From NCBI RefSeq assembly GCF_013009075.1, contig NZ_CP053108.1:2994517-3058516 (forward strand): a stretch of DNA of 64,000 bases, given 5' to 3'. The position numbers were made by a program, and so were the translations under genes. The stretch comes from Halomonas sp. TA22. Lineage in GTDB: Bacteria > Pseudomonadota > Gammaproteobacteria > Pseudomonadales > Halomonadaceae. This document shows positions 2,645 through 43,264 of the stretch, in pieces. The notes below the pieces were generated by a model, which was given only the letters and a program-made list of their open reading frames with translations, did no database searches and was not told the DNA's origin. Within the stretch, counting starts at the first letter, position 1. Each line of letters starts with the position of its first letter.

Positions 2645-4300
2645 ATGTATCGGTACGACACTTACGATCAGACGCTCGTCGACGAGCGCGTTGCCCAATT
2701 CCGTGACCAGATGGACCGCTATCTGGGTGGGCGTCTGCCGGAAGAGGAATTCCGTCCGCTGCGCCTGCAGAACGGCCTCTATATCCAGAAGCATGCGCCG
2801 ATGCTGCGCATCGCCATCCCCTACGGCATGCTCTCGAGCCGCCAGTTGCGAGCACTGGGTGAAATCACGCGTCGCTACGACCGGGGTTACGGGCACTTCA
2901 CCACGCGCCAGAACCTGCAACTCAACTGGCCGAAGCTCGAGGATATCCCCGACATCCTCGGCGAGCTCGCCCAGGTGCAGATGCACGCCATTCAGACCAG
3001 CGGCAACTGCATCCGTAATACCACCAGCGACCAGTTCGCCGGGATCGCCCAGGATGAAGTCGAGGATCCCCGCCCTTGGTGCGAGCTGATTCGCCAGTGG
3101 TCGACGCTGCATCCCGAGTTCGCCTATCTGCCGCGCAAGTTCAAGATCGCAGTGAGTGGCGCCGCCGAGGATCGCGCCGCCATCCAGGTGCATGATATTG
3201 GCCTGCGCCTGTGGCACAACGAGAATGGCGAGCTGCGCTTCCGCGTACTGGCCGGGGGTGGACTTGGTCGCACGCCGATGATCGGTGACGTGGTGCGCGA
3301 GGATCTCCCCTGGCAGCATCTGCTCACCTATCTGGAAGCGTGCGTTCGCGTCTATAACCAGTTTGGCCGCCGTGACAACAAGTTCAAGGCGCGCATCAAG
3401 ATTCTGGTCAAGGCGTTGGGCATCGAGGAGTATCGTCGACGCGTCGACGCCGAGTGGGCGCACCTCAAGGATGGCTCGCAGACCCTCAACCAGGCTGCCG
3501 TGGATACCGCGCGCGCGCACTTCATCGAGCCTGAACGTCGCGAGATTGCAGAGCAGGCGATTGCCGACTTCGAACGCCTGCGCGGCGAGAATCGCGCCTT
3601 CTCGCGCTTCGTGACCAATAACGTCAGCGGCCACAAGGTGCCAGGCTACAAGGCCGTCACTCTCTCGCTCAAGCGTCGCGAGCATGCCCCCGGCGACATC
3701 ACTGCCGATCAGATGGACACGGTGGCCGAGCTTGCCGATCGTTACAGCTTCGGCGAGCTACGTGTCACTCACGAGCAGAACCTGGTGCTTTCCGATGTCG
3801 CCGTCGATGAGATCGAGGCGTTGTGGCAGGAACTCGAAGCGCTCGGCATGGCGAACCCTACGGTAGGTACGCTCAACGACATCATCTGCTGTCCGGGAGG
3901 CGACTACTGCAGCCTCGCCAATGCAGTCTCGATTCCCATCGCTCAGGCGCTGCAGGAGCGCTTCGAAGATCTCGATTTCCTCTACGACCTGGGGCCACTC
4001 GACCTCAACATCTCGGGGTGCATGAACGCCTGCGGTCATCATCACGTAGGGCATATCGGCATTCTAGGCGTCGACAAGAAGGGTGAAGAGTATTACCAGA
4101 TCTCGTTGGGCGGCAATGCCACTGACGACGCCTCGCTGGGCAAGATTCTCGGCCCCTCCTTCTACCGCGAAGACGTGCCGGACGTCGTCGACAAGGTGCT
4201 CAAGGTCTATGTCGAACAGCGCCATGAAGATGAGCGCTTCCTCGACACCTACCGCCGCATCGGCCTGAAGCCCTTCAAGGAGCGCGTTTATGCCAAATGA
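2645..4300 (+). CDS. cysI: Assimilatory sulfite reductase, hemoprotein (sirohaem/4Fe-4S)
   Basis: Reduces sulfite to sulfide with six electrons for cysteine synthesis. The 551 residues match the Pseudomonas-type sulfite/nitrite reductase in length and in its opening (MYRYDTYDQ). The ferredoxin-like half carries the arginine-rich substrate region (YDRGYGHFTTRQNLQ). The C-terminal half carries the cluster and sirohaem cysteines as CPGGDYC (C-x5-C) and CMNAC (C-x3-C). Its end overlaps the next gene (DUF934) by 11 bp, which points to translational coupling. No flavoprotein subunit (cysJ) is adjacent, as expected for this type, which probably takes electrons from ferredoxin or another donor. Confidence 0.95.
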   Translation: MYRYDTYDQTLVDERVAQFRDQMDRYLGGRLPEEEFRPLRLQNGLYIQKHAPMLRIAIPYGMLSSRQLRALGEITRRYDRGYGHFTTRQNLQLNWPKLEDIPDILGELAQVQMHAIQTSGNCIRNTTSDQFAGIAQDEVEDPRPWCELIRQWSTLHPEFAYLPRKFKIAVSGAAEDRAAIQVHDIGLRLWHNENGELRFRVLAGGGLGRTPMIGDVVREDLPWQHLLTYLEACVRVYNQFGRRDNKFKARIKILVKALGIEEYRRRVDAEWAHLKDGSQTLNQAAVDTARAHFIEPERREIAEQAIADFERLRGENRAFSRFVTNNVSGHKVPGYKAVTLSLKRREHAPGDITADQMDTVAELADRYSFGELRVTHEQNLVLSDVAVDEIEALWQELEALGMANPTVGTLNDIICCPGGDYCSLANAVSIPIAQALQERFEDLDFLYDLGPLDLNISGCMNACGHHHVGHIGILGVDKKGEEYYQISLGGNATDDASLGKILGPSFYREDVPDVVDKVLKVYVEQRHEDERFLDTYRRIGLKPFKERVYAK

Positions 4301-6191: not shown

Positions 6192-7188
<997 letters not shown>

Positions 7189-8381: not shown

Positions 8382-11129
8382 CTAGTCCAAGGCGCTCTCC
8401 AGACGCAGACGCTGCCAGTCGCTGGTCGGCTCGTTGAGCGGCAGGGTCACGTCCATCACCTGCTCCTCCATGTTGTAGCGCAGCCGGAAGCCAAGGTGTT
8501 TCATCAAGTTTCGCATGGGGAAATTGTCTGCCATTACCTTGCCGAACATCTCAAGCGTCCCCACCCCCTTGCAGTAGCGGATCATCTTGTTCATGAGCAG
8601 GCTGCCAAGCCCCTGCCCCTGCATGTCGTCGCGAATGATGATCGAGAACTCGGTGCGGATATTGTCCGGGTCATTCCAGACTCGCACCACCCCCAGCATC
8701 TGTCGGCTGCCATCGTCGCGCTCATGCTCGGCAATGAACGCCATCTGCCGGTCGTAATTGATCTGCGCCAGCATCGAGAGGTCGCGCTTGGTGAGATCGG
8801 CCTTGTGATGAAAGTATCTGAATCGAATGCTCTCCTCGGAGAGTTGAGTATGAAACGCAGTGATCAGCGGCGCGTCCTCGGCGCGGATCGGCCGTACCTC
8901 GACGTTCATGCCGTTCTTGAGCGTGATCCACTCCCTGAGCTCTTCGGGATAGGGCATGATCGCGTGACGGGCAGGCGTCCCCAGGTCCATGGCGAAGTCC
9001 ACCGCCACCACGCCATCGCGGTTGAGCAGCACCGGATTGAGCTCCAGCCCCTTGAGCGCCGGCAGGTCGGAGGCCATCTGGGAAAGCTTGACCAGCAACT
9101 GACAGATACGCTGAAAATCCCGCTCGGGATCGCGGGAGTGTTCGCGTATCAGCTTGGCGGCGTGGGTACTCGACACCAGGTCATTGGCCAGCGTCATGTT
9201 GAGCGGCGGCAGTGCGACGTGCCGGTCGGCCAGTACGTTGACCTTGTAGCCGCCGATACCGAACACGATCACTGGGCCGAAGACGGGATCGCGCGTGATA
9301 CCGGCACACAACTGCATGGAGTTCTTGCCGCGCTGCATCCCCTGCAGGCAGTACTCGTGGATCACGATGTCCGGCTGCCTTTGGTGGACCTGCTCGCTCA
9401 GCCGCCGCACCGCATCGGCCACTTGCTGCGGGGTGACGAGATCTTGGATCAGCCCCCCCGAGAGCCGGTGAGGGTGGCGGCGATAGCGAAACGGCATGCA
9501 ATTGTTCTCGTGTACTACCTTCAGCGCCATGCCTTCGCTGAACTCGATCGCTGCGCTGGCCCCCTCCTCGGGTGTCGTCACGTACTGGCTCGATGCAGTG
9601 GGGATACCGTATGCTGCCAGTACCTGAGCGATCTCTGAGTGGGTAAGCGACTCCCGCCCCGCCTCCCGCGCCTTGTCGATCAGACCATGGCAGCGCGCCC
9701 GAATCTCGGCCGAGGTGGCAAATGGCAGACTTGGCGGCGTCTCCTGCAGCAGCGTCTGCACGCGCTGGTAATTGACCATGTGCATGAAGGCCTTGACTGC
9801 CTTCTCCGGCGAAGTGTAGGTCGGAATACCGGCCAGGTTGCTCTCGTGACGTGCCGACAACGCCTCCTCCAGCCCCATCCAACTGGTCAGCAGATTGCGC
9901 TTGAAGCGCTTGCGATTGGCGACGATCGCCTCCGCGGTGATCTTCGACGGCGCCTGACGCGTCGGTGCATGCACCACCAGCACCGCATCCACCCCCGGAT
10001 CCGCGGCCACCACCTCCAGTACATCGACCATCTTCTCCGGCGTGGCATTGCCACTGAGATCGACGGGATTGCGCCCAGGCAACGTCATGTCGACATCGCG
10101 ACGCTGCAGCGCCCGACGCGTCACCTCGGAAAACTCGGCAAGCTTGCCCCCCGCGATAATCAGCTTGTCGATGGCCAGCATCGCCGGCCCCAGCCCGTTG
10201 GAGACGATGGCGAGTCGATCGCCGCGCAATGGTTTCATCCGCGACAGCGTCTCGAGGGCATCGAACAGCTCGTCCGAGTCATCGACGCGTACCACTCCGG
10301 CGCGAGCCAGCGCCGCATCGAAGATCACGTCGCGATTGGCGATTCCCGGCGTGGGCGCAATGCCGGAGATATCCGATTCGGGCGTGCGCCCGCTCTTGAT
10401 CGCCAGCACCAGGCGATGGCGGGACGCCTCGCGCAGTGCGGTCATCAGGTGCTGAGCATCGTGGGAGTGTTCGAGGTGCAGCAGGATCGCCTGGGTCGGC
10501 GCGTACTGGTTGATATAGTCGATCAGGTCGGGCAACAGCACATCGACGCTGTCGCCCAGCGTGACCAAGTGCGAGAAGCCGATGCCCCGGCCCGCTGCCC
10601 AGTCGATCATGGCACTGCCGAGCATCCCCGACTGGCCGAGATAGGCCACCTTGCCTGGCTTGACGGGCTGACTTGCATAGGAGGCATTGAGCTTGCGCCC
10701 CGGCACGATCAAGCCCATGCACTCCGGTCCCAGCACCCGGATGCCGCTGCGCCTTGCGGCCTGAAGCATGCGTTCGCGAATCGAGCGCCCCTCCTGCGCG
10801 GGATCATCGAGATAGGAGCCTCCGGTCAGCACCAGGGTGGCCTTGACCCCAAGGTTGCCAAGCTGCTCGATCAGCCTGGGCACGCTTCGCACCGGTGAGC
10901 AGATGATCGCCAGATCGGGCACCTCCGGCAGGTCGTCGACGCGCCTGACGCACGTCTGACCGAATACCGTGGCATAGCCCTTGGGATTGACCGCCCATAC
11001 TTGGCCGGGGAACCCCGCCTCCTGCACATTGCGCAGTACCAGCCCGCCCAGGGAGTTGGGCTTTTCCGATGCGCCAATCACCGCCAGGGTGCGGGGCTCG
11101 AAGAAGTGACGTAGAAATCGCGTGCCCAC
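8382..11129 (-). CDS. patZ: PatZ-like protein lysine acetyltransferase (acyl-CoA synthetase/GNAT fusion)
   Basis: A 915-residue two-part protein. The first ~740 residues resemble NDP-forming acyl-CoA synthetases: a CoA-binding Rossmann domain (AVIGASEKPNSLGG), ligase domains, and an ATP-grasp region starting around LTHSEIAQVLAAYGIP. The last ~170 residues are a GNAT domain with the acetyl-CoA loop QGQGLGSLL. This is the architecture of E. coli PatZ and Salmonella Pat, which acetylate a lysine of acetyl-CoA synthetase and other enzymes. The GTG at 11129 is taken as the start because AGGAGA lies five bases upstream. An in-frame ATG at 11159 lacks a ribosome site. It is divergent from a deacetylase-family gene 103 bp away. 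Confidence 0.92.
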   Translation of the reverse strand: MGTRFLRHFFEPRTLAVIGASEKPNSLGGLVLRNVQEAGFPGQVWAVNPKGYATVFGQTCVRRVDDLPEVPDLAIICSPVRSVPRLIEQLGNLGVKATLVLTGGSYLDDPAQEGRSIRERMLQAARRSGIRVLGPECMGLIVPGRKLNASYASQPVKPGKVAYLGQSGMLGSAMIDWAAGRGIGFSHLVTLGDSVDVLLPDLIDYINQYAPTQAILLHLEHSHDAQHLMTALREASRHRLVLAIKSGRTPESDISGIAPTPGIANRDVIFDAALARAGVVRVDDSDELFDALETLSRMKPLRGDRLAIVSNGLGPAMLAIDKLIIAGGKLAEFSEVTRRALQRRDVDMTLPGRNPVDLSGNATPEKMVDVLEVVAADPGVDAVLVVHAPTRQAPSKITAEAIVANRKRFKRNLLTSWMGLEEALSARHESNLAGIPTYTSPEKAVKAFMHMVNYQRVQTLLQETPPSLPFATSAEIRARCHGLIDKAREAGRESLTHSEIAQVLAAYGIPTASSQYVTTPEEGASAAIEFSEGMALKVVHENNCMPFRYRRHPHRLSGGLIQDLVTPQQVADAVRRLSEQVHQRQPDIVIHEYCLQGMQRGKNSMQLCAGITRDPVFGPVIVFGIGGYKVNVLADRHVALPPLNMTLANDLVSSTHAAKLIREHSRDPERDFQRICQLLVKLSQMASDLPALKGLELNPVLLNRDGVVAVDFAMDLGTPARHAIMPYPEELREWITLKNGMNVEVRPIRAEDAPLITAFHTQLSEESIRFRYFHHKADLTKRDLSMLAQINYDRQMAFIAEHERDDGSRQMLGVVRVWNDPDNIRTEFSIIIRDDMQGQGLGSLLMNKMIRYCKGVGTLEMFGKVMADNFPMRNLMKHLGFRLRYNMEEQVMDVTLPLNEPTSDWQRLRLESALD

Positions 11130-32692: not shown

Positions 32693-33322
32693 TCATCTCA
32701 CGCCGCACCCCTTGAGGATCACCCGGCAAAGGAAATCGGTGATGCGCCGGTAATCCTCATCGCCCAAATGTTGGCGGCCGGTAATGCCGAGCACCTGCGG
32801 CTCGAAGTCGGCATAGTGCTGCGTCGCCGACCAGATCAGGAAGATCAGCCATATCGGGTCGACCGGATCCATCAACCCGCGCTCGGCCCACTGCTCGAAG
32901 ATCTCGGCGCGGGCCTCTACCCAGTCGCGCAGCTCGCCCTGCAGATACTCTGCCAGGAAAGGTGCGCCACCAAGTATCTCGGCGGCAAACAAGCGCGAGC
33001 CTTGGGGGTGGTCGCGGGTCAGCTGCATCTTGCTGCGAATGAAGGCTTCAAGCACCTCGGCGGGGTCATCATCGACGCTGATATCGTCGAGCATGACGTT
33101 CCAGCGCGCCATCATCCGCTCGAGCAGTGTCACATAGAGCTTTCGCTTGCTGCCGACGTAGTAGAGCACGTTGGACTTCGGCAGCCCGGCCGCTTCGGCG
33201 ATCGCCTGCACACTCGCACCTCGGTAGCCGTGGCAAGCGAATACCCGCTCTGCCGCCTCGAGAATGGCCTTCTCGTTGCGCAGTCGCGTACGCGTCGCAT
33301 CGGCTGTTCCCATCGATGTCAT
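32693..33322 (-). CDS. TetR-family regulator, RutR-like
   Basis: A 209-residue repressor with an N-terminal helix-turn-helix (AERVFACHGYRGASVQAIAEAAGLPKSNVLYYV). Its C-terminal ligand domain resembles E. coli RutR closely: SRLFAAEILGGAPFL, DPVDPIWLIFLIWSATQHYADF. RutR senses uracil/thymine and controls pyrimidine and purine turnover. Here the gene is divergent from xdhABC, and a near-exact RutR box lies between them, so it probably controls purine breakdown. The start is ambiguous between 33322 and 33313; neither has a strong ribosome site. Confidence 0.88.
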   Translation of the reverse strand: MTSMGTADATRTRLRNEKAILEAAERVFACHGYRGASVQAIAEAAGLPKSNVLYYVGSKRKLYVTLLERMMARWNVMLDDISVDDDPAEVLEAFIRSKMQLTRDHPQGSRLFAAEILGGAPFLAEYLQGELRDWVEARAEIFEQWAERGLMDPVDPIWLIFLIWSATQHYADFEPQVLGITGRQHLGDEDYRRITDFLCRVILKGCGVR

Positions 33323-33464
33323 AAGCTCGGACTCTGAAAGGGAAAGCCTAAGCTTGCCGTAGCCCCCCTCACCCTGCAATGGGCAGCCAGGCGGTAATGT
33401 GCAAGTACGGGCTGAGTCTTCTCAGACTTGCACTTTCAACGCACTTGGGCCAGGATTTCGAGAG

Positions 33465-33480
33465 TTGACCATTTGGTCAG
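33465..33480. promoter_or_regulatory. RutR-type operator upstream of xdhA
   Basis: TTGACCA-TT-TGGTCAG matches the E. coli RutR consensus TTGACCA-N2-TGGTCAA at 13 of the 14 defined positions. It lies 77 bp upstream of xdhA and 143 bp from the start of the RutR-like gene. It is the obvious binding site for that regulator. A 9-base direct repeat TCAGACTTG occurs at 33422 and again at 33477, overlapping the operator's right end. Confidence 0.8.
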
Positions 33481-33556
33481 ACTTGACTGTTGCGTCGTCT
33501 CCTTCGACCTTCAAACAATCACTATTCGAATAATAGCCAAGCTGGCGGGCCCCTTG

Positions 33557-35020
33557 ATGATCGATTTCCACCTCAATGGCAGACGTCACTGCGCCGATGT
33601 CGCGCCAGACCTGAGTCTGCTCGAACTGCTGCGCACCCACCTCAACCAGACCGGTACCAAGGAAGGATGCGCCTCGGGCGATTGCGGCGCCTGCACCGTC
33701 GCCATCGGCGAGCCCGATGACGAGGGCAGGCTCATCTACCAGACGGCCAACGCCTGTATCGTCCCGGCGCATCAGGTGCATGGCTGCCATCTGGTCACGG
33801 TCGAGGGGCTAGCTCGCGGAGATGCCCTACATCCCGCCCAGGCCGCGATGGTCGAGTGTCACGCCAGCCAGTGCGGCTTCTGTACTCCGGGTATCGTCAT
33901 GTCGCTGTTCACGCTGCATGAAGCGCAGCGTCACCAGCCGGCACCGCTTACCCAGGAGCGCCTGGAGGCGACCCTGGGCGGCAACCTGTGTCGTTGCACC
34001 GGCTACCGTCCGATCCGCGATGCGGCACTGTCGATGGAGCACCACCCCGACACCCATCCGCTGTGGGCCGACGATCCGGAATTGCCGATCAAGGTGGCTC
34101 GGCTGCACCAGGCACCGAGCCCCGAACACGCCTTCCAGGGACGCTATGGCGTGCCCCGAAGCCTCGAGGAATTGCGTGAGTTCAAGCGCGTCCGCCCGCA
34201 GGCACGGCTGGTCGCAGGCGCCACCGACTTGTGGCTCGAATCCACTCAGCAGCTCAAGGTGCTGGACGACATCATCGATGTCCGCCAAGTGCCCGAACTC
34301 ACCGCCATCGAGGAGACCGACGAGGGGTGGTGGATCGGTGCCGCCGTGACGCTGAGCCGTCTCGAAACGCTGCTGGAGACTCACTTCCCCGCCTTCGCGC
34401 ACCTGCTGCACCGCTTCGCCTCGCAGCAGATTCGCAACCGTGCCACCCTGGGTGGCAACATCGCCAATGCTTCGCCCATCGGCGACTCGCCTCCGGTGCT
34501 GCTGGCGCTCGATGCCCATCTGCGGCTCGACGGGGCGCAAGGGGAGCGAGAGCTGCCCTTGAACGACTTCTTCCTCGATTACCGCGTTACGGCACTCGAG
34601 GAGAGCGAGTTCATCCGCGCCATCTTTTTGCCCCGCCGCGACGACACCCAGGCGCTCAAGGTGTGGAAGCTCTCCAAGCGCCGTGAGGATGACATCTCCG
34701 CGGTGCTGGCGGCCTTCGCCTGGCGTCTAGAAGAGGGTGTCATGCGTGACGTTCGCCTCGCCTTTGGCGGCATGGCGGCGATTCCCCGTCGTGCGCCCGA
34801 CGCCGAAGCGGCCCTGGAGGGCATGCCTCCAAGCCGCGAGGCCTTCGAAGCCGCCAAGGCGGCACTGCGCGGCGAGCTCCAGCCATTGAGCGACGTCCGC
34901 GGCTCCGCCGAGTATCGCCTGTTGGCCGCTTGCAACCTGCTCGAGCGCCTGCGCCTGGTACTCGCCGTCTCACAAGACAACCGCGACTCGGAGGTGATGC
35001 TCGATGCGTACGCTCACTGA
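33557..35020 (+). CDS. xdhA: Xanthine dehydrogenase small subunit (2Fe-2S/FAD)
   Basis: A 487-residue subunit that moves electrons from the molybdenum site through two 2Fe-2S clusters to FAD and NAD. The first cluster cysteines are Cys38, 43, 46 and 67; the second are Cys106, 109, 145 and 147 (CGFC and CRC). The FAD domain begins near residue 175 and contains ATLGGNIANASPIGDSPP. The ATG at 33557 was chosen because homology begins at MIDFHLNG; the frame extends upstream over the operator without support. It overlaps xdhB by 17 bp. Confidence 0.95.
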   Translation: MIDFHLNGRRHCADVAPDLSLLELLRTHLNQTGTKEGCASGDCGACTVAIGEPDDEGRLIYQTANACIVPAHQVHGCHLVTVEGLARGDALHPAQAAMVECHASQCGFCTPGIVMSLFTLHEAQRHQPAPLTQERLEATLGGNLCRCTGYRPIRDAALSMEHHPDTHPLWADDPELPIKVARLHQAPSPEHAFQGRYGVPRSLEELREFKRVRPQARLVAGATDLWLESTQQLKVLDDIIDVRQVPELTAIEETDEGWWIGAAVTLSRLETLLETHFPAFAHLLHRFASQQIRNRATLGGNIANASPIGDSPPVLLALDAHLRLDGAQGERELPLNDFFLDYRVTALEESEFIRAIFLPRRDDTQALKVWKLSKRREDDISAVLAAFAWRLEEGVMRDVRLAFGGMAAIPRRAPDAEAALEGMPPSREAFEAAKAALRGELQPLSDVRGSAEYRLLAACNLLERLRLVLAVSQDNRDSEVMLDAYAH

Positions 35021-37439
35021 TATCGACGCAGACTCGGCCAAGGCGCGCCGGGAGCAGACCGGGCGCAACAAGGGCGACGGTCCACTGGCCCGCGAAGCGG
35101 AAATACCGCACACCCAGCATGGCAGCGCCGGCCACGGCTACAAGCACGAAAGCGCCGTCAAGCATGTCACCGGTCGTGCCGCCTATATCGATGATCTACC
35201 GGCCCCCGCCGACACGTTGCATGTCGCTGTCGGCCTCTCGCCGGTCGCCCATGGCAGGCTAACCCGGCTGGACCTGGAGCAGGCGAGACGCGCCCCCGGG
35301 GTAGTGGAGGCGATCACCTTCATCGATATTCCCGGCCATACCGACATAGGCCCGGTCTTCGCCGGCGATCCGCTGTTCGTCGATGACGAGATCAGCTATG
35401 TCGGCCAGACGCTGTTCGCGGTTGCCGCAGTGAGTTACCGCGCGGCTCGGCTGGCAGTGAGGGAGGCCATCGTCGAGATCGATGAGCAGTCAGCGAGTCT
35501 CGATCCCGTCGCCGCGGCCGAGCGCGAGGAGTTCGTTCGCCCCACCCACGTGCAGGGAAGCGATACCTGGCAAGCCGCTCTGGATGAGGCGGCACACGTG
35601 CTCGAGGGCGAGCAGTTCGTGGGTGGGCAGGAGCACTTATACCTCGAGGGGCAGGCTTGCCTGGTCACACCCACCGAGGATGAAGGGGTGATCGTCTACA
35701 CCTCGAATCAGCACCCCAGCGAGACCCAGAAGCTGGTCGCCGAGGTGCTCGACATCCCCTTCCATGCGGTGACCGTGGAAACGCGGCGCATGGGCGGCGG
35801 CTTCGGTGGCAAGGAGACCCAGGCTTCACCCTGGACCTGCATCGCCGCCATCGTCGCCCGCCGCACCGGACGTAGTGTGCGACTGCGGCTGCCCCGCGCC
35901 GAGGACATGCGCGCCACCGGCAAGCGCCACCCCTTCCATAACCGCTACCGGCTCGGCTTCGATGCGCAGGGCGTGCTGCTGGGGGGCGACTTGACCCTGA
36001 TCGGCGATTGCGGCTTCTCGCCGGATCTCTCCGAGGCGATCGTCGACCGGGCCATGTTCCATGCCGACAACGCCTACTCGTTGGGCCAGGCACGCGTCAC
36101 TGGCCATCGTGCCAGGACGCATAAAGCCTCCAATACTGCCTTTCGCGGTTTCGGCGGCCCTCAGGGCATGATGCTCATCGAAGCCGCCATGGACGACATC
36201 GCTCGCCGCATCGGTGAGGACCCGCTTACCGTGCGCAAGCGCAACTTCTATCGCACAGGTCGTGATGTCACCCATTACGGTCAGCGCGTCGAGCAGCTTT
36301 CGCTGCTTCACGACCTAGTCGCGCAGCTCGAGGCTACGAGCGACTACTGGGCGCGACGCCGGGCAATCACCGACTTCAATGCCAGAAGCCCGATCGTCAA
36401 GAAGGGGCTTGCCCTGACCCCGGTGAAGTTCGGCATCTCGTTCACCGCCCAGCATCTCAACCAGGCCGGTGCGCTGCTGCACGTCTATACCGATGGCAGC
36501 GTGATGATCAACCACGGTGGCACCGAGATGGGACAGGGGCTGCACACCAAGATCTGCCAGGTGGTGGCACGGGAGCTGGGGCTGGATATCAAGCAGGTGC
36601 GCATCACCGCCACACGCACCGACAAGGTGCCCAACACCTCGCCCACCGCTGCCTCCAGCGGTGCCGACCTCAACGGCCAGGCGGCCCGCGACGCCGCCGC
36701 CAGACTGCGCGAGCGGCTGCTCGACTTCGCCGCCAGCCACTTCTACCAGGACGAAGGGGGGCTCGACCGCGAGGCGATGCGCCTGGAGCGGGGCTACCTG
36801 GTCGTCGACAGCGGCGATGAGAGCAGACGCATTGGCTGGGGCGAGCTGGTCCAGGCTGCCTATCTGGGGCGCATCTCGCTCTCGGAAAAGGGCTTCTACT
36901 CGACTCCCCTTATCCACTACGACCGCACCACCGCCAAGGGGCGCCCCTTCTACTACTATGCCTATGGCGCGGCAGTGAGCGAGGTGGCGGTGGACACGCT
37001 GACGGGCGAGTATCAGGTTACCCGCGTCGACATCCTGCATGACGTGGGCGATTCGTTGAATAGCGCCATCGATATCGGCCAGGTCGAGGGCGGCTTCATC
37101 CAGGGCATGGGCTGGCTGACCTGCGAGGAACTCAAGTGGAACGACGCGGGACGCCTGCTCAGCGACGGCCCGTCGACCTACAAGATTCCCGCCTTCGGCG
37201 ATCTACCGTCGGTATTCAACGTCGAGCTGATGCAGGGCCACCCCAACTCCCAAGCCAGCATTTACCGCTCCAAGGCCGTGGGCGAGCCACCCTTCATGCT
37301 GGGAATTTCAGTGTGGTCGGCGCTGCGCGATGCGCTTGCCAGCCTCGCCGACTATCGCCAGAGCCCCCCGCTCGATACGCCGGCCACCCCGGAGCGGGTG
37401 TTGATGGCCGCCGAGGCGTTGCGCCATGCCCGCCCCTGA
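35004..37439 (+). CDS. xdhB: Xanthine dehydrogenase large subunit (molybdopterin)
   Basis: An 811-residue catalytic subunit that hydroxylates hypoxanthine and xanthine to urate. The region around GGGFGGKETQ (about residue 265) contacts the molybdopterin, and TAFRGFGGPQGM near residue 375 holds the Arg that positions purine substrates. MGQGLHTKI and the final VGEPPFMLG, containing the catalytic Glu, are intact. GGAGGTG lies 8 bases before the start. Together with XdhA and XdhC it forms a standard XdhABC unit, and it overlaps xdhC by 14 bp. Confidence 0.96.
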   Translation: MRTLTDIDADSAKARREQTGRNKGDGPLAREAEIPHTQHGSAGHGYKHESAVKHVTGRAAYIDDLPAPADTLHVAVGLSPVAHGRLTRLDLEQARRAPGVVEAITFIDIPGHTDIGPVFAGDPLFVDDEISYVGQTLFAVAAVSYRAARLAVREAIVEIDEQSASLDPVAAAEREEFVRPTHVQGSDTWQAALDEAAHVLEGEQFVGGQEHLYLEGQACLVTPTEDEGVIVYTSNQHPSETQKLVAEVLDIPFHAVTVETRRMGGGFGGKETQASPWTCIAAIVARRTGRSVRLRLPRAEDMRATGKRHPFHNRYRLGFDAQGVLLGGDLTLIGDCGFSPDLSEAIVDRAMFHADNAYSLGQARVTGHRARTHKASNTAFRGFGGPQGMMLIEAAMDDIARRIGEDPLTVRKRNFYRTGRDVTHYGQRVEQLSLLHDLVAQLEATSDYWARRRAITDFNARSPIVKKGLALTPVKFGISFTAQHLNQAGALLHVYTDGSVMINHGGTEMGQGLHTKICQVVARELGLDIKQVRITATRTDKVPNTSPTAASSGADLNGQAARDAAARLRERLLDFAASHFYQDEGGLDREAMRLERGYLVVDSGDESRRIGWGELVQAAYLGRISLSEKGFYSTPLIHYDRTTAKGRPFYYYAYGAAVSEVAVDTLTGEYQVTRVDILHDVGDSLNSAIDIGQVEGGFIQGMGWLTCEELKWNDAGRLLSDGPSTYKIPAFGDLPSVFNVELMQGHPNSQASIYRSKAVGEPPFMLGISVWSALRDALASLADYRQSPPLDTPATPERVLMAAEALRHARP

Positions 37440-38277
37440 TATGCCTTGGCACACCGCTCTGGATCGCTTGCAGCGCGAGGCAATCCCACACGCCCTGGCA
37501 AGCGTGGTCGGGGCAGCAGGCTCCACGCCGCGCGAACCCGGCGCCAAGATGGTGATCACCGCCGATCAGGTATACGACACCTTGGGCGGCGGCACTTTCG
37601 AGTTTCAGGTGATCGATGTCGCCCGCACCGCACTGGCTCGTCACGAGCAAGGTCCGCGGCTAGAGGCATTCTCCCTGGGCGGACGCAGCGGCCAGTGTTG
37701 TGGCGGCTTCGTCAATGTGCTGATCGAGGTGTTTGCCGGCGCCGAGATGCACGTCGCGCTATTCGGTGCCGGCCATGTCGGTCAAGCGCTGGTCGGCCTA
37801 TTCGCCCCACTGCCATGGCGGCTAAGCTGGTTCGACAGTCGCGCGGGGGCCTTTCCCGAGCACTTGGTGCAGCAACCCAGGCTTAGCTGCCGACGGTGTA
37901 TCGATCCAGCAGAATCGGTGGCAAGCCTGCCCGGCAGCTGCCATGCGCTGGTGATGACCCACGATCACGGCGAGGACCGGGCGCTGATCGATGCCCTGCT
38001 CAGGCGCGGCGATTGCGCCTCCATCGGCCTGATAGGCTCGGTGAGCAAATGGTCCAGCTTTCAGCGCCGCTTGCACGATATGGGCCACGAGCAGGCAAGA
38101 CTCGACACAGTGCGTTGCCCCATTGGCATTGCTGGCGCCCAGGGCAAGCGTCCTTACGAAATCGCGCTGGCGGTTGCCGCCGAGCTGCTGACGCTCAAGC
38201 CGGGCGTCGACAAGCGCGAGCGCCGCGGTGTGCCCGCCGAGACGCTACGCCAGACCTTTACCCCTTCGTCGAGCTGA
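37426..38277 (+). CDS. xdhC: Xanthine dehydrogenase accessory protein XdhC
   Basis: A 283-residue factor that binds molybdenum cofactor, sees to its sulfuration and inserts it into XdhB. It has the N-terminal CoxI-type region (SVVGAAGSTPREPGAKMVI), a QCCGG motif near residue 90, and a Rossmann domain beginning HVALFGAGHVGQAL. The chosen ATG overlaps the end of xdhB. A second ATG at 37441 directly follows the xdhB stop and would remove only five residues. Confidence 0.93.
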   Translation: MPAPDMPWHTALDRLQREAIPHALASVVGAAGSTPREPGAKMVITADQVYDTLGGGTFEFQVIDVARTALARHEQGPRLEAFSLGGRSGQCCGGFVNVLIEVFAGAEMHVALFGAGHVGQALVGLFAPLPWRLSWFDSRAGAFPEHLVQQPRLSCRRCIDPAESVASLPGSCHALVMTHDHGEDRALIDALLRRGDCASIGLIGSVSKWSSFQRRLHDMGHEQARLDTVRCPIGIAGAQGKRPYEIALAVAAELLTLKPGVDKRERRGVPAETLRQTFTPSSS

Positions 38278-38313: not shown

Positions 38314-39627
38314 ATGACAGATACGCGTATCCTGCGCGGCCCCGTGCTGAGCTTTGTCGACGACCCCGGCGAGGAGGACCGCCCAGCCGAGGGCAGCGTG
38401 CTCTACCTCGAGGATGGCGCGGTGTGGATCAACGATGGCGTGATCCACGCCGTCGGCGACTACCGCGAGCTGGCCGCGCGTCTGCCCGAGGGGGTCGACG
38501 TCATCGACTACTCGGGCAAGCTGATCATGCCCGGTTTCATCGATAGCCATGTGCATTACGTGCAACTCGATATCATGGCCTCCTACGGGCGCCAGCTGCT
38601 CGACTGGCTCAATACCTACACCTTCCCCGAGGAGTGCCGCTTCGCCGAACGCGCCCATGCCGAGGATGTCGCCGAGGCCTTTCTCGACGAGCAGTTGCGG
38701 GCGGGCACGACCACCGCTCAGGTGTTCTGCACCTCGCATCCGGTCTCGGTGGAGAGCTTCTTCGCCGCCGCCCACCGTCGCGGCCTGCGCATGCTGGCAG
38801 GCAAGGTGATGATGGATCGCCACGCCCCGGCGGCCCTTACCGACACCGTGGAGAGTGGTGTACGCGACAGCGAGCGGCTGATCGGCGAGTGGCATGGCAA
38901 GGGGCGGCTAGGCTACAGCCTGACGCCGCGCTTCGCCCCCACTTCTACTCCCGAGCAGCTCGATGCCGTGGGCGGCATGCTGCGCAATGCGCCTGACCTG
39001 CACCTGCAGACGCACCTCTCCGAGAACCGGGGCGAGATCGAGTGGGTCGCAAAGCTCTATCCCGATGCTCCCGACTACTTGGGCGTCTATGAACGTTACG
39101 GTCTGGTCGGCCCGCGCAGCACCTTCGCCCATGGCATTCACCTGACGCAGGAGATGCGCCAGCGGCTGGCCTCGGCGGGAGCCAACATCGCCTTCTGCCC
39201 AACCTCCAATCTGTTTCTGGGCAGCGGCCTGTTCGATCGCCTGGCCTGTCGCGAGGCGGGACTCAACGTCACCCTGGCGAGCGACGTCGGCGGCGGCACC
39301 AACCTCTCGAGTTTTGCCACCCTTTCTGCCGCCTATCAGGTCGGCCAGTTGCTCGACCAGCCACTGACTGCCTGGCAGGGCTTCTACCGCCTGACGCTTG
39401 GCAATGCCCGCGCGCTGCATCTCGACCGCCACATCGGCTCACTGCGTGAAGGCCATGAAGCCGACATCGTGGTCCTCGATCCGCAGGCCACGCCCCTGCT
39501 GGCACGGCGCACCGCACGTACCGCAAGCCTCGATGAGCTGCTGTTCGCGCTGATGATCCTTGGCGATGACCGCACGATATTCGCCACCTGGGCCAATGGC
39601 CGCTGCGTGCATCAGCGCGACGGCTGA
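38314..39627 (+). CDS. guaD: Guanine deaminase
   Basis: Converts guanine to xanthine, the substrate of XdhAB. The 437 residues match E. coli GuaD (439). Zinc-site motifs are the HxH in GFIDSHVHYVQ (about residue 80), the central His in LQTHLSEN, the next in FAHGIHL and the Asp in LASDVGGGTNLS. AGGAG precedes the ATG at 38314. It follows xdhC by 36 bp, completing an xdhABC-guaD operon that probably lies under the RutR-like repressor. It is convergent with the M20 hydrolase, with 1 bp between stops. Confidence 0.95.
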   Translation: MTDTRILRGPVLSFVDDPGEEDRPAEGSVLYLEDGAVWINDGVIHAVGDYRELAARLPEGVDVIDYSGKLIMPGFIDSHVHYVQLDIMASYGRQLLDWLNTYTFPEECRFAERAHAEDVAEAFLDEQLRAGTTTAQVFCTSHPVSVESFFAAAHRRGLRMLAGKVMMDRHAPAALTDTVESGVRDSERLIGEWHGKGRLGYSLTPRFAPTSTPEQLDAVGGMLRNAPDLHLQTHLSENRGEIEWVAKLYPDAPDYLGVYERYGLVGPRSTFAHGIHLTQEMRQRLASAGANIAFCPTSNLFLGSGLFDRLACREAGLNVTLASDVGGGTNLSSFATLSAAYQVGQLLDQPLTAWQGFYRLTLGNARALHLDRHIGSLREGHEADIVVLDPQATPLLARRTARTASLDELLFALMILGDDRTIFATWANGRCVHQRDG

Positions 39628-39628
39628 G

Positions 39629-40885
39629 TCATCCCGCCCAGCGGCACAGGAACAGCGCATAGGTCTTCAGGGTATGGCGGATCGACTCGATCTCGACACA
39701 CTCGTCGACGCCATGGATGCGCTGTGCCACCGGCCCATAGCAGGTACCGGCCACACCGGCAGCGACATGGAAGGCGCGCAGGTCGGTGGTGCAGGTGGAG
39801 AGGTAGTGGCCAGGTTCGCTGTCGGTCAGCGAACGGTGGCACTGCGCCAGCAGCTGCACACCCGGGCTCTCCAGATCGACCAGATGCCCCTCGGAGCGGA
39901 AGCCGTGAAACTCGATGCGCGGGGGCGTGGCATCGCTGCCCAGCGCCTCATGGGCCTGCAGCACACAACGCCTTATCTGCTCCATTACCGTTTCGGGCGA
40001 GACATCCGGGGCGAAGCCGAAGCGCCCTTCAAGCAGCGCGTGCGCCGGCACGCTCGAGGCCCAGTTGCCCCCTTCGATGCGCCCGATATTGAGATTGAAA
40101 GGGTGCGTCAGGCCATCGTATGGTGGGGTGCGGGGGGCGGTATTGAGCTCCTCCTCGAGTGCCTTGAGCGCCGGGATCAGGGCCTGGAGACGCTCGATGG
40201 CGCTGCTGCCCGCCGAAGTGTCCAGCACATGCGCAGGCACGCCGTCGACGCGAATGCGAAAGCGGATGACACCGATCTGGCCAGTGTAGATCTGTGCACC
40301 GAAGGGCTCGGGTATCAGCACGAAATCACCGGCCAGGCCTCGGTTGACGCAGGCCAGGGCGCCATTGCCGGTGCACTCCTCCTCGATCACCGCCTGCAGC
40401 GTCAGGGGAAAGTCGAGCGTCTCGCCGGCCTGGCGATATGCATGCACCGCCATCACCATCGCGGCAATTCCCGCCTTCATGTCGCCGGCGCCACGCCCAT
40501 ACAACCAGCCGTCGCACTCCCACGGCTCCCAGGGTGGGCGAGTCCACATATCGATGGGCTCGGCCGGCACCACATCGAGGTGACCATTGAAGACAAGATG
40601 CGGCTTTGGCGAGTCAGGGTTGAGGCGCGCCACCACGTTGAAGCGGCCAGCGTTGGACCATTCGACCGGAGCATGGTGGGGATTGCGATAGAGTTCAGGG
40701 TCGTCGAGAGGAACGTGCTCGACCGGCAGTCCCAGTCGTTCGAACCACTTTTGCATGACCGCCAGTGCACCGTGCTCACGACCCAGCACGCTGTATTCGG
40801 CGATCAATTCGCGCAGCACGGTCAGCGTGTCGTCGAAGCACGCATCGCACTGCGCCAGCACGCGTTGCTCTCTCTGGTTAAGCAT
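39629..40885 (-). CDS. M20-family metallohydrolase (ArgE/DapE-like deacylase)
   Basis: A 418-residue di-zinc hydrolase. Visible catalytic features are FNGHLDVVP (zinc His and catalytic-loop Asp, about residue 100), GRGAGDMKAG (bridging Asp), IEEECTGNGA (catalytic Glu) and a late zinc His in QRIHGVDE. Family members cleave N-acetyl, N-formyl or N-succinyl amides, or dipeptides. The substrate is unknown, but cotranscription with a GntR regulator and a divergent peptide-type importer suggests it acts on an imported N-acyl or peptide-like compound. AGGAGG precedes the start, which overlaps the end of the regulator gene by 8 bp. Confidence 0.88.
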   Translation of the reverse strand: MLNQREQRVLAQCDACFDDTLTVLRELIAEYSVLGREHGALAVMQKWFERLGLPVEHVPLDDPELYRNPHHAPVEWSNAGRFNVVARLNPDSPKPHLVFNGHLDVVPAEPIDMWTRPPWEPWECDGWLYGRGAGDMKAGIAAMVMAVHAYRQAGETLDFPLTLQAVIEEECTGNGALACVNRGLAGDFVLIPEPFGAQIYTGQIGVIRFRIRVDGVPAHVLDTSAGSSAIERLQALIPALKALEEELNTAPRTPPYDGLTHPFNLNIGRIEGGNWASSVPAHALLEGRFGFAPDVSPETVMEQIRRCVLQAHEALGSDATPPRIEFHGFRSEGHLVDLESPGVQLLAQCHRSLTDSEPGHYLSTCTTDLRAFHVAAGVAGTCYGPVAQRIHGVDECVEIESIRHTLKTYALFLCRWAG

Positions 40886-41561
40886 GTCCCCCCTCCTTTT
40901 CCGAGATTCCCTTGACCACGAAGTCGCGCGCCACGCCGATATGGAAATCGACCGCCTCGCGACACTGTCGCGCATCGCCGCTGGCCAGGGCCTCCACCAG
41001 CGCCCAGTGGCAGGTAGCGATGGTATCCGGGTCCTGGTGCGTCCGCCCGATCAGCGCAATGCATAGCCGCAGTTCGTGGGAGAGTTCCTCGAAGACCTTG
41101 AGCAGACGCTGATTGCCGGCAAATTCGATCACCATGCGGTGAAAGTTGAGGTCCTCCTCGATCTTGAGGCTGTCGTCGTTCTCCTGTGCGACCTCGCACA
41201 TCATCTCGACCTGGCGACTGAGCGCATCGTGCATCGCCGGGGTGAAGTGCCCGATCAGCAATTGAAAGGCATGACGCTCCAGGCATAGACGCAGATCGAA
41301 CACGTCGACCAGATCCGTACTGTCGAGCTTCCTGACGAAGAATCCTCGACGCGGCCTGGAGATCAGAAGACCACGGCTCTCGAGCAGACGTGCCGCCTCG
41401 CGCACTGGCGCCCGGCTGATGCCGAGGTCGCGCGATATCTGCACTTCGGAGAGACGCTCGCCGGGCTGAAAGCGCCGGGCGATGATCGACTCGGTGAGAT
41501 AGTCCGTCACCTGTGCCACAAGGTTGTATTGCTGGATGCCGGCAAAGGGCTCGTTTCGCAT
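40878..41561 (-). CDS. GntR-family regulator, FCD (FadR-like) subgroup
   Basis: A 227-residue regulator with an N-terminal winged helix (LSEVQISRDLGISRAPVREAARLLESRGLL) and an all-helical FCD ligand domain (VFDLRLCLERHAFQLL, EDLNFHRMVIEFAGNQRL, final REAVDFHIGVARDFV). The His and Asp residues typical of metal-assisted carboxylate binding in FCD domains are present, so the effector is likely an organic acid or amino acid derivative. It is cotranscribed with the M20 hydrolase and divergent from the ABC importer genes, which it presumably controls. Confidence 0.92.
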   Translation of the reverse strand: MRNEPFAGIQQYNLVAQVTDYLTESIIARRFQPGERLSEVQISRDLGISRAPVREAARLLESRGLLISRPRRGFFVRKLDSTDLVDVFDLRLCLERHAFQLLIGHFTPAMHDALSRQVEMMCEVAQENDDSLKIEEDLNFHRMVIEFAGNQRLLKVFEELSHELRLCIALIGRTHQDPDTIATCHWALVEALASGDARQCREAVDFHIGVARDFVVKGISEKEGGHA

Positions 41562-41621
41562 ACGGAAGATCTCGTCAACGCCATGTCAGTTCTGATTGAG
41601 AGTATGACGCATCTCGGTTCA

Positions 41622-41644
41622 TGTCGACCGTCGGCTGTCGACAG
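41622..41644. promoter_or_regulatory. Candidate GntR operator: paired TGTCGAC elements
   Basis: TGTCGAC occurs at 41622-41628 and again at 41636-41642, one and a half helical turns apart. The second copy lies within the perfect palindrome CTGTCGACAG. Both sit in the 143 bp gap between the divergent GntR gene and the ABC substrate-binding gene. This is the most symmetrical element there and the best candidate binding site for the regulator, though no consensus for this protein is known. Confidence 0.45.
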
Positions 41645-41704
41645 CTTGGGGAGGCGCTGCTATGGTCAAAGACGAGCAGCATTCAGTCCAACCAAAAACA
41701 ACGG

Positions 41705-43264
41705 ATGAAGGACATGAAAACACCACTAGTCGCCGCCATGGCGTCTCTCGCCCTTGTCTCAACCTCTGCCCTTGCCGAACCCAAGTCGGGGGGAGTGATC
41801 AATACCATCATCCAGCCCGAGCCGCCGGGACTGGTGCTGGGCATGGTCCAGAACGATCCCACCCGCAAGGTGGCCGGCAATATCTACGAGGGGCTGCTGC
41901 GTTACGACACCGATCTCGAGCCAATGCCGCAGCTGGCCGAGTCCTGGGAGATCAGCGACGACGGCCTGACCTATACCTTCCACCTGCGCGAAGGGGTGAC
42001 CTGGCACGACGGCGAGCCCTTCACCTCCGCCGATGCGAAATTCTCCATCGACGAGTTCCATCGCGAGCTCAACCCCAGCGCTCGTGCGGTGCTCGAGCAT
42101 GTCGAGAGCATCGAAACGCCGGACGACCACACCATCGTCTTCACCCTCGAGCAGCCCTTCGGCCCCTTCATGCTCTCCTTCGAGGCCGGCACCTTCACCA
42201 TGGTGCCCAAGCATGTCTATGAAGGCACCGACTACCGCGACAACGACGCCAATAGTCACCCGATCGGCACCGGCCCGTTCAAGTTCGACAACTGGGAGCG
42301 CGGCACGGTCATCCAGCTGGTGCGCAACGACGACTACTACGAGGAGAACCTCCCCTATCTCGATGGCATCAATTGGCACATCATTCCCGATGGCGCCTCC
42401 CGTGCCGTGGCCTTCGAGAACGGCACCGTCGATGTACTGCCCAATGGCACCGTGGAGAATTTCGACATCCCGCGCCTCTCGGCCATGGACAACACCTGCA
42501 TGACCGAGGAGGGCAACGAGTACTTCAGCCCCTTCGCCATGCTATGGATGAACAATCGCGAGGGGCCAACCTCCGACAAACGCTTCCGCCAGGCGGTGAT
42601 GTACGCCATGGATCGCGAATTCGCTCGCGACGTGTTGTGGAATGGCTTGGGCGAAGTTCCACTCTCGGCATTCGGCTCCAATGCGCGCTTCCAGCATGAC
42701 GGCCTGGAGCCCTACGACCACGACCCCGAGCGCGCTCGTGAACTGCTCGAGGAGATGGGCTACGACGGCGAGGAGGTGAGACTGCTGCCGATTCCCTACG
42801 GCGAGACCTGGGTTCGCTGGGCCGAAGCGGTGCAGCAGAACCTGAGCGAGGTGGGCATCAACGTACGCACCCAATCCACCGACGTGGGCGGCTGGAACCA
42901 GCGCCTGGGCGAGTGGGACTACGACCTGGCCTTCACCTATCTCTACCAGTACGGCGACCCGGCACTGGGCATATCGCGGACCTACCTCTCAAGCAACATC
43001 GAGCGAGGCTCACCCTGGAATAACGTCGAGGGCTACGAAAACGCGCGTGTCGACGAGCTCTTCGAGTCGGCGGCCACCGCCTTCCCCGACGAGGAGCGTG
43101 AAGCGCTCTACCGCGAGGTGCAGGAGATCCTCCATGAAGACGTTCCGGTGGGCTGGCTGATGGAGCTCGGCTTCCCGACCCTCTACCGGTGCGACGTGCA
43201 GAACCTGGTCACTTCGGGGGTGGGGGTCAACGATGGCTTCAAGGACGCCTGGCTCGATCGCTGA
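41705..43264 (+). CDS. ABC transporter substrate-binding protein, peptide/nickel type
   Basis: A 519-residue exported binding protein of the DppA/OppA (SBP family 5) class. A Sec signal (about residues 1-24, ending STSALA) precedes mature EPKSGGVINT. Family blocks are NIYEGLLRYDTDLEPMPQLAESWEIS, FHLREGVTWHDGEPFTSAD, HPIGTGPFKF and VRQAVMYAMDRE-like RFRQAVMYAMDRE. The ligand class may be peptides, modified amino acids, nickel chelates or glycosides and cannot be fixed from sequence. The start is uncertain between 41705 and 41714; the latter has a ribosome site too close to be used. Confidence 0.9.
   Translation: MKDMKTPLVAAMASLALVSTSALAEPKSGGVINTIIQPEPPGLVLGMVQNDPTRKVAGNIYEGLLRYDTDLEPMPQLAESWEISDDGLTYTFHLREGVTWHDGEPFTSADAKFSIDEFHRELNPSARAVLEHVESIETPDDHTIVFTLEQPFGPFMLSFEAGTFTMVPKHVYEGTDYRDNDANSHPIGTGPFKFDNWERGTVIQLVRNDDYYEENLPYLDGINWHIIPDGASRAVAFENGTVDVLPNGTVENFDIPRLSAMDNTCMTEEGNEYFSPFAMLWMNNREGPTSDKRFRQAVMYAMDREFARDVLWNGLGEVPLSAFGSNARFQHDGLEPYDHDPERARELLEEMGYDGEEVRLLPIPYGETWVRWAEAVQQNLSEVGINVRTQSTDVGGWNQRLGEWDYDLAFTYLYQYGDPALGISRTYLSSNIERGSPWNNVEGYENARVDELFESAATAFPDEEREALYREVQEILHEDVPVGWLMELGFPTLYRCDVQNLVTSGVGVNDGFKDAWLDR

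Follow-up and report, generated by a model that had tools for sequence, protein, structure and literature searches.

The window, the whole stretch of 64,000 nt from the Halomonas sp. TA22 genome that was analysed, harbours a gene for a predicted RutR-like repressor of the TetR family, divergent from the genes xdhA, xdhB, xdhC and guaD, with a palindromic candidate operator in the region between them (Table 1). For the regulator gene, an additional in-frame ATG exists at position 33322. The coding sequences of xdhA and xdhB overlap by 17 bp and those of xdhB and xdhC by 14 bp, and xdhC and guaD are 36 bp apart. Because of this tight spacing, and since all four products score above the curated family cut-offs, xdhABC-guaD is likely to form a single transcript. 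The first-pass annotation had placed the box in the xdh promoter region, and the arrangement bears this out: an operator-like element lies between the gene of the RutR-like protein and xdhA, the first gene of the tight series. Beside guaD, positions 39629-43261 of the window contain the convergent gene of an M20 ArgE/DapE-type deacylase together with genes for a GntR/FCD regulator and a family-5 solute-binding protein.

Table 1. Features of the tetR-xdhA region in the window, and purine-linked loci outside the Halomonadaceae with a box ahead of xdhA or guaD.
Locus	Feature	Position	Strand	Remarks
Window	RutR-like TetR-family repressor (predicted), 206 aa, divergent from xdhA	32693..33313	-	PF08362 162.5 bits; TIGR03613 187.9 bits (cut-off 368)
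Window	divergent tetR-xdhA intergenic region	33314..33556		243 bp
Window	candidate operator box TTGACCATTTGGTCAG	33465..33480		palindrome, 6/7 arm pairs symmetric
Window	xdhA, xanthine dehydrogenase small subunit	33557..35020	+	TIGR02963 542.8 bits (cut-off 467)
Window	xdhB, molybdopterin-binding subunit	35004..37439	+	TIGR02965 1145.4 bits (cut-off 849.5)
Window	xdhC, accessory protein	37426..38277	+	TIGR02964 246.9 bits (cut-off 161.6)
Window	guaD, guanine deaminase	38314..39627	+	TIGR02967 545.6 bits (cut-off 375.4)
L095	two boxes	xdhA at 7015		1 mismatch each
L105	two boxes	xdhA at 9450		0 and 1 mismatch
L101	box	xdhA at 8750		2 mismatches
L196	box	between xdhA and divergent tetR		1 mismatch
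L096	box	guaD at 3571		1 mismatch

The candidate operator box

The sequence TTGACCATTTGGTCAG was compared with TTGACCANNTGGTCAA, the operator consensus of E. coli RutR. Both agree at 13 of the 14 defined positions, with one mismatch, so that the near-perfect RutR operator annotated earlier is confirmed at exactly this position. In a passage of PMC10891134, the RutR site is described as "an approximately 16 bp palindromic sequence". The 3′ edge of the box is located 76 bp ahead of the xdhA ATG. Throughout the window it is the sole match to TTGACCANNTGGTCAA with fewer than three mismatches, and matches with up to three mismatches number 9 versus 1.4 expected. In 3000 dinucleotide shuffles of a 246-nt stretch (the tetR-xdhA gap plus start codon), a best match with at most one mismatch was never obtained; the best match had two mismatches in 6, three in 30 and four in 222 shuffles.

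A scan for other copies of the box, proposed in the first-pass annotation, covered the genome of 3.73 Mb and revealed no further match with 0-1 mismatch. Two mismatches occur at 11 places, all of them within mechanically called open reading frames (ORFs) of at least 100 aa. Altogether, 318 places match with up to three mismatches; the one three-mismatch place that was inspected (204529) is intergenic and has no recognisable purine gene beside it. A multi-gene regulon in this genome was rejected on the grounds of the 11 places inside ORFs and of this single inspected three-mismatch place.

A consensus scan of the tetR-xdhA intergenic region detected no sigma-70-like promoter near or overlapping the box, and the idea of a sigma-70 promoter overlapping it was dropped. 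An inverted repeat, GTGCAAGT ... CTGAGTCTTCTCAG ... ACTTGCAC, is present at 33398-33433 of the window, with the start of tetR on one side and the box on the other.

Conservation of the box in the Halomonadaceae

Conservation was determined for 66 tetR-xdhA loci (L010-L063, L076-L087) with 48 distinct intergenic sequences, all from Halomonadaceae according to the named records. These loci comprise the 30 top matches of one homology list, 24 loci from a second search and 12 hand-picked from further rows of the first list; L064 and L065, which are without xdhA, and the fragment L066 were dropped from the count. The box was found in all 48 sequences, with no mismatch in 10, one in 20, two in 9, three in 8 and four in one. 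Eight box positions are invariant, and the mean information amounts to 1.60 bits per box column versus 0.22 in the flanks. Taken singly, the nine boxes with three or four mismatches are weak, as shuffles of the window gap yielded at most three mismatches in 36 and at most four in 258 of 3000 cases.

The rarity of the match, its absence from the shuffles, its conservation in all 48 intergenic sequences and the little conservation of the flanks allow us to regard the box with high confidence as the predicted operator of the adjacent RutR-like protein. The operator as such is ordinary.

An exact YTGACCANNTGGTCAR occurs in 71 of 151 genomes of the family. Among 30 such loci that were fetched (first match per genome), both tetR and xdhA are located at the site in 21; six of the other nine matches lie inside ORFs. 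In the family member L146, an exact RutR-type box, TTGACCAGATGGTCAA, was observed at 1501 (G044:C1:460500) between xseA and the IMP dehydrogenase gene, both checked for their families, and the same 16-mer occurs once in G045; a purine-synthesis target of the L146 box is possible. In L079, L082 and L083, a permease with 26-27% identity to RutG is encoded near the xdh-linked tetR and is possibly a purine permease.

Boxes at rut and pyd loci and outside the family

Outside the Halomonadaceae, 15 purine-linked loci were scanned for TGACCANNTGGTCA, which has 12 defined bases. A box with 0-2 mismatches ahead of xdhA or guaD is present in five of them (Table 1) and absent from the other ten. In L174 and L175, a one-mismatch box lies just past xdhC, and the best match in L088, L089, L090, L094, L100, L108, L173 and L177 has two or three mismatches. 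Pyd-type loci from other groups (L065 and L107) contain similar boxes as well, so that the core is common to a large part of the RutR family and the ligand cannot be read from the box alone. RutR-like genes beside a BMP-type solute-binding protein were noticed in L088, L089, L091 and L094, with an 8-oxoguanine deaminase also in L088, L089 and L094, which suggests clusters for purine or nucleoside uptake.

At rut-operon loci of the Halomonadaceae, a box near rutA shares its core with the xdh box. The outer bases deviate from those of the xdh box in L112, L115, L118 and L129, four of the six loci, for example AGGACCAAATGGTCCA, and agree with them in L111 and L131, where the box reads TTGACCCAAAGGTCAA. 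The view that rut boxes of the family always carry other outer bases had to be given up for these two loci, and the difference is a possible, not a general, basis for the insulation of paralogues. In the 12-14.5 kb surrounding the pyd-linked PF08362 gene (L067/L135), no full box was found and the sole one-mismatch core lies inside preA, so that an operator common to the pyd-linked paralogue was rejected.

Identity and phylogeny of the regulator

The regulator consists of a TetR_N domain (45.1 bits) and a YcdC-like C-terminal domain (PF08362), the composition expected of RutR. Its best sequence match in the PDB is 3loc (E 2.5e-44), a structure of E. coli RutR. When an AlphaFold2 model with a mean pLDDT of 91.7 was compared with eight RutR chains, which are 37-38% identical in sequence, TM-scores (by query) of 0.84-0.92 were obtained. 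This makes E. coli RutR the closest solved structure both by sequence and, for the predicted model, by fold. An operator of the type TTGACCANNTGGTCAA also lies next to the target, as for RutR. The earlier statement that the gene beside the box encodes a protein resembling RutR was thus well founded.

The further statement, that RutR itself has been assigned to xanthine dehydrogenase and guanine deaminase, is not supported. The protein remains below the curated RutR cut-offs of TIGR03613 (Table 1) and NF011584 (166.8 bits, cut-off 230). The TA22 genome encodes two PF08362 proteins, the second of which adjoins reductive pyrimidine genes, namely those for dihydropyrimidinase and PreA (both above cut-offs) and a GltD/PreT-type protein. 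As this pyd-linked paralogue is likewise under the RutR cut-offs (TIGR03613 168.2 bits, NF011584 142 bits), a low equivalog score was rejected as a mark of the xdh-linked paralogue alone. A rut neighbourhood is also lacking: xdhA stands beside the regulator gene in L010-L063 and L076-L087, with no match to RutA-RutF in these loci, which for L010-L039 cover merely about 1.5 kb per side.

A tree of 75 rows was calculated, for which one locus in four was taken from L011-L063 and duplicate rows were left out; it came with a long-branch warning and several unresolved forks. The xdh-divergent proteins form a single clade (support 99/98), all eight rut-labelled rows fall into a separate clade of 13 rows together with five others (100/99), and the pyd-labelled rows form a third (100/99). 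The xdh-divergent proteins are joined with 20 others from the order in a wider clade, the support of which (94/82) is just below the mark of the tool. These 20 include proteins encoded near xdhA, guaD or 8-oxoguanine deaminase genes; purine genes are their sole marked neighbours, with a purine marker in the fetched locus of ten and none in that of the other ten. RutR itself at xdh was therefore rejected on four counts, the equivalog cut-offs, the position outside the rut clade, the missing rut neighbourhood and the loss of the Tyr97 contact, and the regulator is regarded as a distinct paralogue.

The ligand pocket

According to a figure legend in PMC10891134, uracil is contacted in E. coli RutR by W77, Y97, W167, Q171 and by Q179 of the other monomer. 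The residues W77, W167, Q171 and Q179 are retained in the xdh-divergent, rut and pyd rows. In the TA22 regulator Tyr97 is replaced by Phe, which leaves four of the five uracil contacts and not the full set of RutR. The 49 distinct xdh-divergent proteins carry Phe (46) or Leu (3) and never Tyr at this position; Tyr97 is present in all 11 proteins of the rut clade and all 16 of the pyd clade. R76 and N78, which flank the uracil-stacking W77, are invariant in all 49 xdh-divergent proteins. For the wider clade, 69 rows were chosen by locus number following the tree, including rows outside it; position 78 is occupied by N (62), D (5) or E (2) in these proteins and by L (16), K (14), M (1) or V (1) in the remaining 32.

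The prediction for position 78 was set beforehand, with prewritten thresholds, for a further draw of 160 genomes of the phylum, of which 36 had a PF08362 match. Of 56 places 43 were taken, in 40 regions, with the own family, three places already fetched and two weak matches excluded; markers were scored within about 8 kb, and some regions were shortened by contig ends. N, D or E at position 78 was found in five of six purine-linked and in none of 22 pyrimidine-linked proteins (Fisher p 6e-5), the exception being the purine-linked L187. The Fisher table leaves out the 15 of 43 proteins that have no marker neighbour (14 without N/D/E, one with). A single family accounts for four of the five positives, and this family and two of the genomes were already in the first set. 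N/D/E at position 78 is accordingly taken as a clade marker, not yet as a proven cause, and may go back to a shared single origin. Tyr97 is still present in 15 of the 69 wider-clade proteins and in each of the five positives from the further draw, so its loss does not extend to the wider clade in general and was rejected as a feature that would mark the purine-linked clade as a whole.

A set of PF08362 proteins (L167-L171, L187, L190) aligns with P-L/I-L at positions 76-78 and is without Trp77, with Tyr97, Trp167, Gln171 and Gln179 kept; in six of these seven cases neither a purine nor a pyrimidine marker is located in the vicinity, and the set perhaps reflects misalignment or a further branch. 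L195 and L204 align with A-V-L at the same positions.

For the TA22 regulator, the altered position 97 and the residue found at position 78 are indications of a purine ligand. The protein may nevertheless bind uracil or thymine, given that it retains four of the five uracil contacts.

Comparison with known systems

E. coli RutR (TetR family, PF08362), a sensor of uracil and thymine, and the TA22 regulator share the fold, the helix-turn-helix, the palindromic operator core, four of five uracil contacts and the divergent placement by the target operon. In contrast to RutR, the TA22 regulator adjoins xdhABC-guaD and not rut, shows about 38% identity and a sub-equivalog score, has Phe for Tyr97 together with R76 and N78, and belongs to another clade.

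Regulators of xdh of the TetR type in Streptomyces coelicolor and of the LysR type in Cupriavidus necator are already known (PMC6627660, PMC7057948). The former, XdhR, is a TetR-family repressor of xdh, as predicted here for the TA22 protein, with ppGpp as reported ligand and GTP as a weaker one (PMC6627660, PMC7057948). The C. necator XdhR likewise regulates a xanthine dehydrogenase cluster and is inducible by xanthine (Km 13 uM, 16-fold), but as a LysR-type protein it belongs to an unrelated family (PMC7057948).

RutR regulons were predicted in 68 genomes of 13 groups with 10.9 genes on average and taxon-specific motif changes (Leyn et al. 2016, PMC5343134). In contrast to the xdh-linked box, pyrimidine catabolism is the only pathway with which the main text of that work connects these regulons, and "xdh" has no occurrence there; its supplement or RegPrecise may list xdh. 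RutR and xdhA or xanthine are both mentioned in PMC8743547, PMC4591121, PMC5493296 and PMC8556138, and are not linked in the passages found there. In the open-licence literature, supplements excluded, no paper was found which assigns a RutR-like regulator to xdh.

Proposed mechanism and alternative explanations

In the mechanism that we propose, a dimer of the regulator would bind the palindrome between the divergent genes and block transcription of xdhABC-guaD, and its own gene would probably be repressed as well. An accumulating purine catabolite would occupy the pocket equivalent to the uracil pocket of E. coli RutR, and the ligand-loaded repressor would leave the DNA, whereupon guanine and xanthine would be degraded. 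Xanthine shares with uracil the dione pattern of its six-membered ring, which is why it is our first guess for the ligand, followed by hypoxanthine, guanine or urate. The adjacent protein very likely represses xdhABC-guaD, and a purine is moderately favoured over a pyrimidine as its ligand. The reading as a whole, a local RutR-like repressor of xdhABC-guaD that is relieved by a purine and does not link pyrimidine to purine metabolism, we consider probable.

The main competitor is a regulator that senses uracil or thymine like E. coli RutR, by which the pyrimidine level would govern purine breakdown. It is unlikely, with a small but appreciable chance left to it because most uracil contacts (W77, W167, Q171, Q179) are kept, and it agrees with the match of the box to the E. 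coli consensus and with the fold of the predicted model, nearest to that of RutR. E. coli RutR itself, according to the abstract of PMC10891134, coordinates pyrimidine and purine metabolism. However, the xdh-linked proteins form a separate clade, Tyr97 is lost in 49 of 49 of them with R76 and N78 invariant beside W77, the second PF08362 protein of the genome is already located at reductive pyrimidine genes, and N/D/E at position 78 accompanies a purine context. A regulator answering to ppGpp or another guanine nucleotide alarm signal has its precedent in the TetR-family xdh repressor of S. coelicolor (described in PMC6627660, with the family from PMC7057948), but is improbable, as the conserved W77, W167, Q171 and Q179 speak for a small nucleobase pocket which should hardly fit a nucleotide.

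Two further explanations concern the box and not the pocket. In both PF08362 proteins of the genome position 52 is Lys and the recognition helices are similar, so the pyd-linked protein could be the main binder and provide a true pyrimidine input. This is very improbable in view of the merely one-mismatch core within preA around its own gene and the conservation of the box beside the xdh-linked gene; the differing outer bases of rutA-near boxes in four of six family loci count in the same direction, but not in L111 and L131. A functionless palindrome that arose by chance would fit the lack of a recognised promoter near the box, but its presence in 48 of 48 sequences and in none of 3000 shuffles reduces this explanation to a negligible level. 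The purine-relieved local repressor is hence the reading we prefer.

Beyond TA22, the RutR family may contain an unrecognised purine-sensing branch, spread over several families of proteobacteria, whose repressors are linked to xdhA, guaD or 8-oxoguanine deaminase genes. In such a branch the Trp sandwich and partly the operator core would be kept, and N, D or E after Trp77, in Halomonadaceae together with Phe or Leu for Tyr97, would turn the uracil pocket into one of the xanthine type; for this wider proposal we hold belief and doubt to be evenly balanced. If it is true, proteins annotated as RutR-like or simply as TetR would be repressors of purine catabolism, positions 76-78 and 97 would represent a directly testable switch by which one fold is set to sense pyrimidines or purines, and a compact purine-responsive promoter would be supplied.
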